A stretch of 36,877 nucleotides of DNA from a virus: the IMG/VR virus record IMGVR_UViG_3300050821_008212, positions 1 to 36,877 of that record; one strand, given 5' to 3'. Below are positions 3,136 to 29,514 of this stretch, in pieces; within the stretch, counting starts at the first letter, position 1, and every line of letters begins with the position of its first letter. The position numbers were made by a program, and so were the translations under genes. The notes under the pieces are model-generated. The model was not told the DNA's origin. It saw only the letters and a list, made by a program, of their open reading frames with translations, and ran no database searches.

Positions 3136-3362
3136 TTGTTACCTTTGCGTTGCGTCGAGTGGAGGTGCGCGGCCATGCATCGTGTCGAGTGGTATTGCGT
3201 TGCGTCGCGGAAAGATGCGGAGCGTAGCAGCGTGTAGCGATGCGGTGGGAAGCGTTGCGTTGCGGGGATGAGCGGGGAGAAGCGAAGCGCAGTACTGCGA
3301 TGCAGTGCGTTGCGGGGCCCTGTGACGCGGAGCGCAGCGTTGCGCAGTGTCGTTTCCATTAC
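3136..3362 (-). repeat. Degenerate pentanucleotide repeat leader, copy 2
   Basis: Same character as 2203-2560: on the minus strand repeated CGCAACGC, CGCATCGC and CGCTACAC units, ending CAACGCAAAGGTAACAA directly before the ATG of the 2563-3135 gene. Both copies therefore end at an ATGCCTAAA start. An ORF extends through it only because the repeat lacks stops. Likely an untranslated or regulatory leader; function unproven. Confidence 0.7.
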
Positions 3363-20768: not shown

Positions 20769-21376
20769 AAAACGCACCAGAAGCAAAAAGGCTCCTTGCG
20801 GAGCTGAAAATAAAAGTGCGCAATGCATGGCTTGTGCTGGAACGATTGCCGGACTTGGACGCAAGATTCCGGAGGGGGCTAAGTGGTGGTGGATGGTGCT
20901 TAACGGTTGTGCGTGGATGGCAGGCTATTGAATCGTCCGATGATACTTTTGCAACCGATAAGATTCGAACTCGGCCGCCAACCCCGTCCCCGCATGAAAT
21001 AACCGAGGCCGAGGGCATCATGACCTGGATGGTTTGGCTGCGGCAAAAGGAGGGGAAGGCGGCGGTAAGTAGGATTATAGCTTGGGCGAGAGGTGCACCA
21101 TGGTGCAATATGAGTGCACGGGAAGGGTGTTCGGATCGAACGGTCAGGAATCGGTTGGATCGCTCGATGGCCGCGGTTATGCTGGAATTCCGGGAGGAAA
21201 GGCTTGATATTCCGGTCGTCGACGAGCCGGCGCTGTCGAACAGACGCGCGCGGTATTTTGCGGCGCCGTTAGGTGCTGGCGACGGCAATGGGGAGGTTCG
21301 AGTCGGGAAATGCTTCATTGGCGGCCATGGTTTTCGTTTTGGCGGGAAGTCATATGAGTCAGCGCAATTGCGTTAA
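20765..21376 (+). CDS. DUF6362-like DNA-binding protein
   Basis: 203 residues. Central part TRPPTPSPHEITEAEGIMTW, RIIAWARGAPWCNMSAREGC then SDRTVRNRLDRSMAAVMLEF is a sigma-like/HTH arrangement seen in DUF6362 phage proteins (P-x-P-s-x-x-x-I-x-x-x-E ... W-a-x-G-x-P-W). N-terminal helix LAELKIKVRNAWLVLERLP. Likely a transcriptional regulator of later genes. Confidence 0.7.
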   Translation: MKNAPEAKRLLAELKIKVRNAWLVLERLPDLDARFRRGLSGGGWCLTVVRGWQAIESSDDTFATDKIRTRPPTPSPHEITEAEGIMTWMVWLRQKEGKAAVSRIIAWARGAPWCNMSAREGCSDRTVRNRLDRSMAAVMLEFREERLDIPVVDEPALSNRRARYFAAPLGAGDGNGEVRVGKCFIGGHGFRFGGKSYESAQLR

Positions 21377-21869
21377 CTTAATTCACAGTTGGAACAGTGA
21401 GGACGCTGATCCTGATTGTCAGGATAAGCTCGAACGGCTTAACTTCAGTGAAGAAGAAGAGCTAGTTTTTCCGCTTGACACTAGCATATACGACAGTTTC
21501 GTCAAGAGAAATCCACTTGCGCGTAATGGTCAATCTGCGATTTATGCCATTGCTGCGAAGGCTCGAACACCAACAAAAATCGGTGTTTCGTCAGATTTAA
21601 GCACGCTATTGGCATCGATACAGCGCGGAAATTGGCTCGACTTGTACTGCTATTATGCGCTATGGTTTCCGGGGCCGGAACTGGCAGAATGCGTAAACAC
21701 ATGGGTGCATCTTCAGCTTGAGAATATTCACATAACCAATAAATGGTTTCGGACTAATCCTACGGAAGCCAAGAAAATTATTGTCGGAACGGCATCGCGG
21801 ACCTTTCCCAACGTGACGGTGGCCGACCACGGCGCGATCATTGAGGCGTTGAAACGTGGGAGAAAATGA
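21354..21869 (+). CDS. GIY-YIG-type (T5orf172-like) nuclease
   Basis: 171 residues from the ATG at 21354 behind GGCGGGAAG. The domain reads SAIYAIAAKARTPTKIGVSS, LSTLLASIQRGNWLDLY, then PGPELAECVNTWVH and ITNKWFRTNP, matching the GIY-YIG layout (aromatic strand, KIG loop, Q-x-G-N, catalytic Glu, NEWF-like end). The first Gly-Ile-Tyr is degenerate (AIYAI). Possibly a homing or repair-type nuclease; activity uncertain. Confidence 0.7.
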   Translation: MSQRNCVNLIHSWNSEDADPDCQDKLERLNFSEEEELVFPLDTSIYDSFVKRNPLARNGQSAIYAIAAKARTPTKIGVSSDLSTLLASIQRGNWLDLYCYYALWFPGPELAECVNTWVHLQLENIHITNKWFRTNPTEAKKIIVGTASRTFPNVTVADHGAIIEALKRGRK

Positions 21870-22229: not shown

Positions 22230-22318
22230 GGAGCGAATCAGTAAAAATGAACGGTTTGCGCCTCGGGAGGTAGCGACACCTGCTATAAGGTACCTTAATG
22301 GTACCGTAAGGTAGCCTT

Positions 22319-22405
22319 TGGTGCCCGCAGTGGGATTCGAACCAACAATCCCGGGTAGGAGGCGGTTTTAAAGACCGCTGTGTTTACCAGTTCCACCATG
22401 CGGGC
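22319..22405 (-). tRNA. tRNA with UUA anticodon (ochre suppressor, Leu-type body)
   Basis: 87 bases with CCA encoded. Acceptor stem GCCCGCA/TGCGGGC is perfect, the discriminator is A, D-arm stem GTG/CAC, anticodon stem GCGGT/ACCGC with loop CTTTAAA, a long variable arm (15 bases) and T-loop TTCGAAT. In the seven-base loop the anticodon is TTA, pairing with UAA. A normal Leu(UAA) loop would be CTTAAAA, one base different (position 35). A73 and the long arm suggest leucine charging. The T-stem has one T-C mismatch. The acceptor stem is extended by seven more pairs into the flanks (22316-22322 with 22406-22412). Confidence 0.85.
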
Positions 22406-22424
22406 ACCAAAGACGATGATGCGA

Positions 22425-25555: not shown

Positions 25556-25825
25556 TTACAGCCGACGTGATAGATGCTCCGCTTCCCATAGGTCATAGTC
25601 TGCCTGCCAAGCAAGCCAAGTTTTTGGAGATGTATCAAAAACACGGCTTAGCCTAATAGCGGTGTCTGCGGATATGCCACGGCGTCCGCGAATAATGTCA
25701 CTAATGCGGTTTCCCGGAACGCCGATTGAATCGGCTAGAGCTTGGGCTGACATGCCGCGCGGGGTCATATAATTGGCGAGGATCTCGCCTGGGTGTTGAA
25801 CGTGCTGGGGCTTCGTGGTCATCAT
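25556..25825 (-). CDS. higA: HigA-type antitoxin/regulator
   Basis: 89 residues. HPGEILANYMTPRGMSAQAL, ADSIGVPGNRISDIIRGRRG, then ADTAIRLSRVFDTSPKTWLAWQ, the full VapI/HigA XRE-type helix-turn-helix with the signature HPGE start. HigA normally represses its own operon and neutralises HigB. No HigB toxin is adjacent, so it is probably a solitary regulator. Stop TAA; the promoter upstream carries the TACGTA operator. Confidence 0.9.
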   Translation of the reverse strand: MMTTKPQHVQHPGEILANYMTPRGMSAQALADSIGVPGNRISDIIRGRRGISADTAIRLSRVFDTSPKTWLAWQADYDLWEAEHLSRRL

Positions 25826-28395: not shown

Positions 28396-28617
28396 GTGTC
28401 GGCTTTCACAGACCTGGCGGCATATATATCGCGTATTCGCGCCAATCGTGCCAATGGAGTTCGCGCGTTAGATGAACTCACAACAGAGGAACAGGCCGAT
28501 AAGATTATTGCGGAGTTAAACATTTACGGAGCGGGGGTTCGCGAGCGAGTTATTGCTCATCTTGAGGCGGCGGAAGAGCGTGGGTTTGATTCATATCCAT
28601 CATATTGTGATGATTAA
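28396..28617 (+). CDS. Hypothetical helical protein, GTG start
   Basis: 73 residues from a GTG preceded by GGAGGGG. LDELTTEEQADKIIAELNIY then VRERVIAHLEAAEERGFDS. The segment EEQADKI-I-AE ... EAAEERG is repeated in the gene at 29302 (EEYADKIVAE ... YIAEERG), indicating paralogues. Stop TAA, next ATG in the same frame with no gap. Confidence 0.65.
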   Translation: MSAFTDLAAYISRIRANRANGVRALDELTTEEQADKIIAELNIYGAGVRERVIAHLEAAEERGFDSYPSYCDD

Positions 28618-29301: not shown

Positions 29302-29514
29302 ATGCAACAAGCCTCACTTCACCAACAGCTCGATATCGAAGAATACGCCGATAAGATAGTTGCAGAAATATGTGAGTTCATAGGGATTGATCTAGCTCAG
29401 AAAGAGCAATTACATAAAATGCTGATGGTGCATCTTTATATTGCTGAAGAGCGCGGCGAGGAACGTCAGCGTCAATCCGAATATGATGCTAAAGCTTTCG
29501 CGACGGGTGATTAA
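29302..29514 (+). CDS. Helical protein, paralogue of the 28396 gene
   Basis: 70 residues from MQQASLHQQLDIEEYADKIV. AEICEFIGIDLAQKEQLHKM then LMVHLYIAEERGEERQRQ. Similar to the 28396 product in EEYADKIVAE and AEERG. First of three genes sharing an ATGCARCAAGCCTC start. Confidence 0.6.
   Translation: MQQASLHQQLDIEEYADKIVAEICEFIGIDLAQKEQLHKMLMVHLYIAEERGEERQRQSEYDAKAFATGD

Follow-up and report, generated by a model that had tools for sequence, protein, structure and literature searches.

The tRNA gene and its anatomy

The window, by which we mean the whole stretch of 36,877 nucleotides analysed here, is an IMG/VR virus record that is not marked complete. It encodes a recombination module (Erf-like and RecE/YqaJ-like), two DNA methyltransferases, a primosomal protein, terminase, portal and head genes, and it contains a single tRNA gene at 22319–22405, in a gap flanked by the early rightward genes on one side and the terminase on the other. 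This gene lies on the minus strand, which the first-pass annotation had left out, and ARAGORN calls it with exactly these coordinates as tRNA-Stop(tta) (hereafter Sup-TTA). The Rfam model RF00005 matches positions 22322–22405 with 54.8 bits (E = 2.7e-9) against a gathering score of 29, the cloverleaf being complete except for one mismatch in the T stem.

The anticodon arm GCGGT-CTTTAAA-ACCGC (22362–22378, minus strand) has all five stem pairs and a seven-nucleotide loop, both in the sequence and in the ARAGORN drawing, with the anticodon UUA and the cognate codon UAA. The ochre anticodon, the loop CTTTAAA and the perfect 5-bp stem proposed in the first-pass annotation are therefore confirmed, and the frame that it had set against its own reading, a loop with the anticodon UAA, fails because CGGTC would face CCGCC and no pairs would form. 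The body, read from the sequence, is of the class II leucine type with A73, A14, A15-U48, G18G19 and an encoded CCA, and the leucine features are borne out by alignment with the tRNA-Leu of phage phiKZ; the acceptor, D and anticodon stems are intact. The locus is a tRNA gene with an ochre anticodon and leucine identity features.

Among annotated phage sequences, tRNA-Leu genes from phages of the phiKZ group come closest, and with these the window gene shares the class II leucine body at ∼79% identity. The phiKZ tRNA-Leu(taa) is a sense tRNA with the loop CTTAAAA, from which the window loop differs solely at position 35 (A to U). The earlier description of the gene as tRNA-Leu(UAA) with one change at position 35 consequently holds for the loop; the stem and body differ more extensively.

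Structural defects and expression signals

The T stem (GTTGG/CCCAC) carries a U51-C63 mismatch in the ARAGORN drawing, which was absent from the first-pass annotation, and the T stems of the other leucine-type Sup-TTA tRNAs inspected, those of L191 and L006 among them, are fully paired at this and all other positions. The mismatched position is a contact site for EF-Tu. The CCA end and the 3′ trailer are complementary to the 5′ leader, an arrangement that gives a 14-nt perfect inverted repeat (22316–22412; repeat search and RNA fold) extending the acceptor stem, and the precursor at 22310–22414 is very stable (RNA fold z = -4.84), so that the extended stem could hinder maturation. A short GGTACC-type repeat directly 3′ of the tRNA (22286–22318; TRF and RNA fold) can form a small hairpin with no T run, and its folding is unremarkable (z = -1.4). 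No sigma-70-like promoter and no terminator pattern was recognised in a sigma-70 scan near the tRNA. The window copy may be weak or decaying.

Relatives of the window

Relatives by terminase large subunit (TerL) among isolates include Shewanella and enterobacterial phages (41–49% identity), the sole genome match belongs to a Bacteroidetes MAG, in one contig (47% identity), and a plasmid search gave no match. No intact tRNA was found in locus L009 (82% TerL identity), in eight more viral loci or in the one genome contig, much of this DNA being fragmentary. Locus L010 (69% TerL identity) contains a broken remnant, a 42-nt match covering the T arm, the variable arm and the anticodon loop including TTTAAA, with an alignment score reached by 0 of 1000 shuffles. 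This one short match suggests that the UUA loop may be older than the split between the window and L010. Alignments suggesting tRNA remnants in L009 and L131 are weak and were not counted.

Use of TAA as a stop codon

The first-pass annotation had held that TAA is used mainly in late and accessory genes and that their readthrough could be regulated. In the window, 10 of the 40 called genes end in TAA (25%), compared with 19% and 47% in two relatives lacking the tRNA, counts that come from a simple gene caller and small numbers; TAA is neither restricted to late and accessory genes nor depleted, and several structural genes end in TAA without special protection. Comparison with the same two relatives likewise revealed no depletion of TAA and no excess of TAA followed by TGA. 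No internal TAA occurs in the terminase, portal and head genes, and no conserved protein frame in the window was found to continue across a TAA. Reading through TAA lengthens open frames less than reading through TGA, the longer ORFs that result look like shadows or abutting genes, and a tblastx comparison of window TAA codons with sense codons of the relatives returned off-frame shadows among the matches listed.

Two in-frame abutments of TAA with ATG are present in the window, and the sole one that can be tested in relatives, a potential readthrough fusion at 28396/28618, is not conserved in L009 or L010. Tandem TAATGA stops, considered as an adaptation to the suppressor, arise from TAATG gene overlaps. 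The DUF2213 gene has its TAATGA in common with L130, where no tRNA was found, so that this stop does not reflect adaptation to the tRNA. There is thus no support for regulated readthrough of late genes, given that no conserved frame is bridged by TAA and that this tandem stop is common to L130.

Recurrence of Sup-TTA tRNAs in other phages

Pattern scans of IMG/VR (anticodon arm, T arm and leucine D arm) combined with ARAGORN identified, in other phages, at least about ten Sup-TTA tRNAs that are well formed, seven of leucine type, two of serine type and a few others, a mix of bodies that is partly ascertained since leucine and serine bodies were the targets of two of the pattern searches. The search with the 17-base anticodon arm gave two (L003, serine-like, and L006, leucine-like, the latter from a sequenced isolate according to its IMG number). 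The T-arm pattern gave, among the matches listed, L027, L028, L047, L075 and L095 together with the weaker cases L030, L093 and L113, and the leucine D-arm pattern, which leaves the anticodon stem unspecified, gave L173, L178, L186 and one phage present in four contigs (L191, L192, L194 and L196). The UUA anticodon is found on leucine-type bodies in L006, L075, L173, L178, L186 and the L191 group, as well as on L028, and on serine-type bodies in L003 and L095. Rfam recovers every Sup-TTA tRNA submitted to it (46–60 bits), the best model for L095 being tRNA-Sec (50.9 bits). Several matches to the TTA patterns without an ARAGORN call turned out to be leucine tRNAs with an intron-like interruption after the loop, or else other sequence. 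As in the window, the Sup-TTA tRNA is the lone tRNA found in at least six other records (G001, G002, G015, G017, G020 and G021).

Leucine and serine tRNAs belong to the classes whose synthetases ignore the anticodon. The recurrence of UUA on these bodies therefore fits the argument that such a tRNA could be charged, and with it selection for a chargeable suppressor. As a control, the UGA anticodon was sought on leucine-type bodies and was found in three tRNAs versus seven distinct tRNAs with UUA (window included), and because this difference is only seven to three, drift is also compatible with the recurrence.

Two further observations concern the recurrence set. The tRNAs at L173:3569-3655, L178:2154-2239 and L186:233-318 have a G-A mismatch at 27-43, which leaves a 4-bp anticodon stem and is absent from the window gene; anticodon stems of 4 bp have been linked with stop codon readthrough (PMC13092985). 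In addition, homologous IS1-like transposase genes lie ∼130–140 bp downstream of the Sup-TTA tRNA at L028:10304-11365 and L191:10817-11876 in phages that are otherwise different, the match to the Pfam family DDE_Tnp_IS1 having been tested on the L028 copy. It is possible that the tRNA is mobile cargo with the transposase at these two loci; no such transposase was seen at the window.

Comparison with known phage suppressor tRNAs

Phage-encoded tRNAs with stop anticodons are known from crAss-like, Lak and jumbo recoded phages (PMC11210395, PMC13037316, PMC12386605). The codons read by these suppressors are UAG or UGA, and most of the phages concerned are large, with recoded stops in frame, whereas the window tRNA reads UAA in a small record in which TAA still terminates genes. 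One of these studies reports that it found no recoded TAA in its large sets of phages (PMC13037316), while TAA reassignment has been predicted in cold-seep viruses (PMC10504277). The Xanthomonas phage XacN1 is similar to the window in combining suppressor tRNAs with the standard code and no identifiable target gene, but its suppressors are orphan amber tRNAs (anticodon CUA) in a jumbo phage with 56 tRNA genes, whereas the window has a lone tRNA (PMC5852040). A tRNA-Sup-TTA has also been reported in the prophage-rich genome of Lactobacillus plantarum BDGP2, but as a bare annotation with no statement of a prophage location and no discussion of function (PMC5637513). In the literature searched, which included few subscription papers, no description of phage Sup-TTA tRNAs as a class was found.

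Origin and possible function

Phage suppressor tRNAs have so far mostly been discussed as tools for TAG or TGA recoding in large phages. Code reassignment cannot explain a recurrent, often solitary tRNA that reads UAA in small phages that stop at TAA, and this recurrence points instead to one of two things, disturbed host termination or tRNA decay that is tolerated. We consider it moderately probable that the window gene is a genuine ochre suppressor, chargeable with leucine and of modest efficiency, that operates with no switch of the code. The gene would then be a phage tRNA-Leu derivative with the anticodon UUA, one of a recurrent and often solitary set in small to mid-size standard-code phages. 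If expressed, it would presumably be charged with leucine by the host LeuRS, and the charged tRNA would then compete against release factors for UAA and, weakly, for UAG, so that UAA-ended proteins of both host and phage would be partially extended at their C-termini while UAA itself would not be reassigned. Because no phage target was found, the likeliest benefit, if any, would be to perturb host termination at a low level in the course of infection. The functional claim is weakened because TAA is an ordinary stop in this phage, no promoter was found in the sigma-70 scan and the T stem carries the U51-C63 mismatch.

The main rival, which we regard as a serious if less probable account, is that the gene is a decaying phage tRNA-Leu(UAA) that has changed at position 35 and has no function, and that the recurrence is mutational noise among the many tRNA-Leu genes of phages. 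Decay would agree with a T-stem mismatch confined to the window copy among the leucine-type tRNAs inspected, with the broken remnant in L010 and the failure to see an intact copy in L009 and the other relatives, with TAA usage that shows no adaptation, and with the presence in viral contigs of leucine bodies bearing another odd anticodon (UGA). It is less easily reconciled with acceptor, D and anticodon stems that are intact, with the retention of all leucine identity positions, and with UUA on intact tRNAs of two body types in at least about ten unrelated phages.

Counter-defence or host takeover, in which readthrough of host UAA codons during infection would damage host proteins, is rather unlikely; it is compatible with the suppressor reading, for which it is a possible purpose. 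Such a role, which a review mentions as having been proposed for phage suppressors, in the form of disturbed host protein production (PMC11025619), is consistent with a tRNA that is often solitary and with the lack of a phage target; set against it are its entirely inferential character and the unprotected use of TAA in the structural genes of the phage itself. We regard it as likewise rather unlikely that small standard-code phages have repeatedly acquired lone ochre-suppressor tRNAs on anticodon-blind leucine and serine bodies as a translational weapon or counter-defence; were this true, UAA-ended host proteins would be lengthened during infection with the code of the phage unchanged.

It is very improbable that the tRNA is kept as an attachment site for an integrase: an integrase gene does lie ∼0.9 kb from the tRNA in L006/G002, but in the window and most other records no integrase was seen next to the tRNA, and such a site does not account for a stop anticodon. 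Reassignment of UAA to leucine throughout the genome has nothing but the cognate tRNA in its favour and is contradicted by the many genes whose expected end is a TAA, by homologues that end at about the same positions and by the smaller gain in frame length from reading through TAA than TGA.

Other features of the window

The genes at window 21273-21869, L159:2268-2654 and L159:4633-5223 show similarity, ranging from weak to clear, to MUG113, T5orf172 or GIY-YIG domains. Genes of this kind lie near the Sup-TTA tRNA in both the window and G001, and since they are common in phages this may be coincidence. A HigA-like antitoxin or HTH regulator is encoded at 25556–25825 (phrog_1381, E = 3e-22), with no toxin partner identified. 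Degenerate GCG-rich repeat blocks occupy 2207–2553 and 3146–3343, with spacings between copies that are mostly multiples of five bases, and the Arg/His-rich ORFs within them are probably artefacts. Upstream of the portal gene, three successive small ORFs (at 29302, 29514 and 29656) begin with the 18-base sequence ATGCAGCAAGCCTCGCAT or a near-copy of it.
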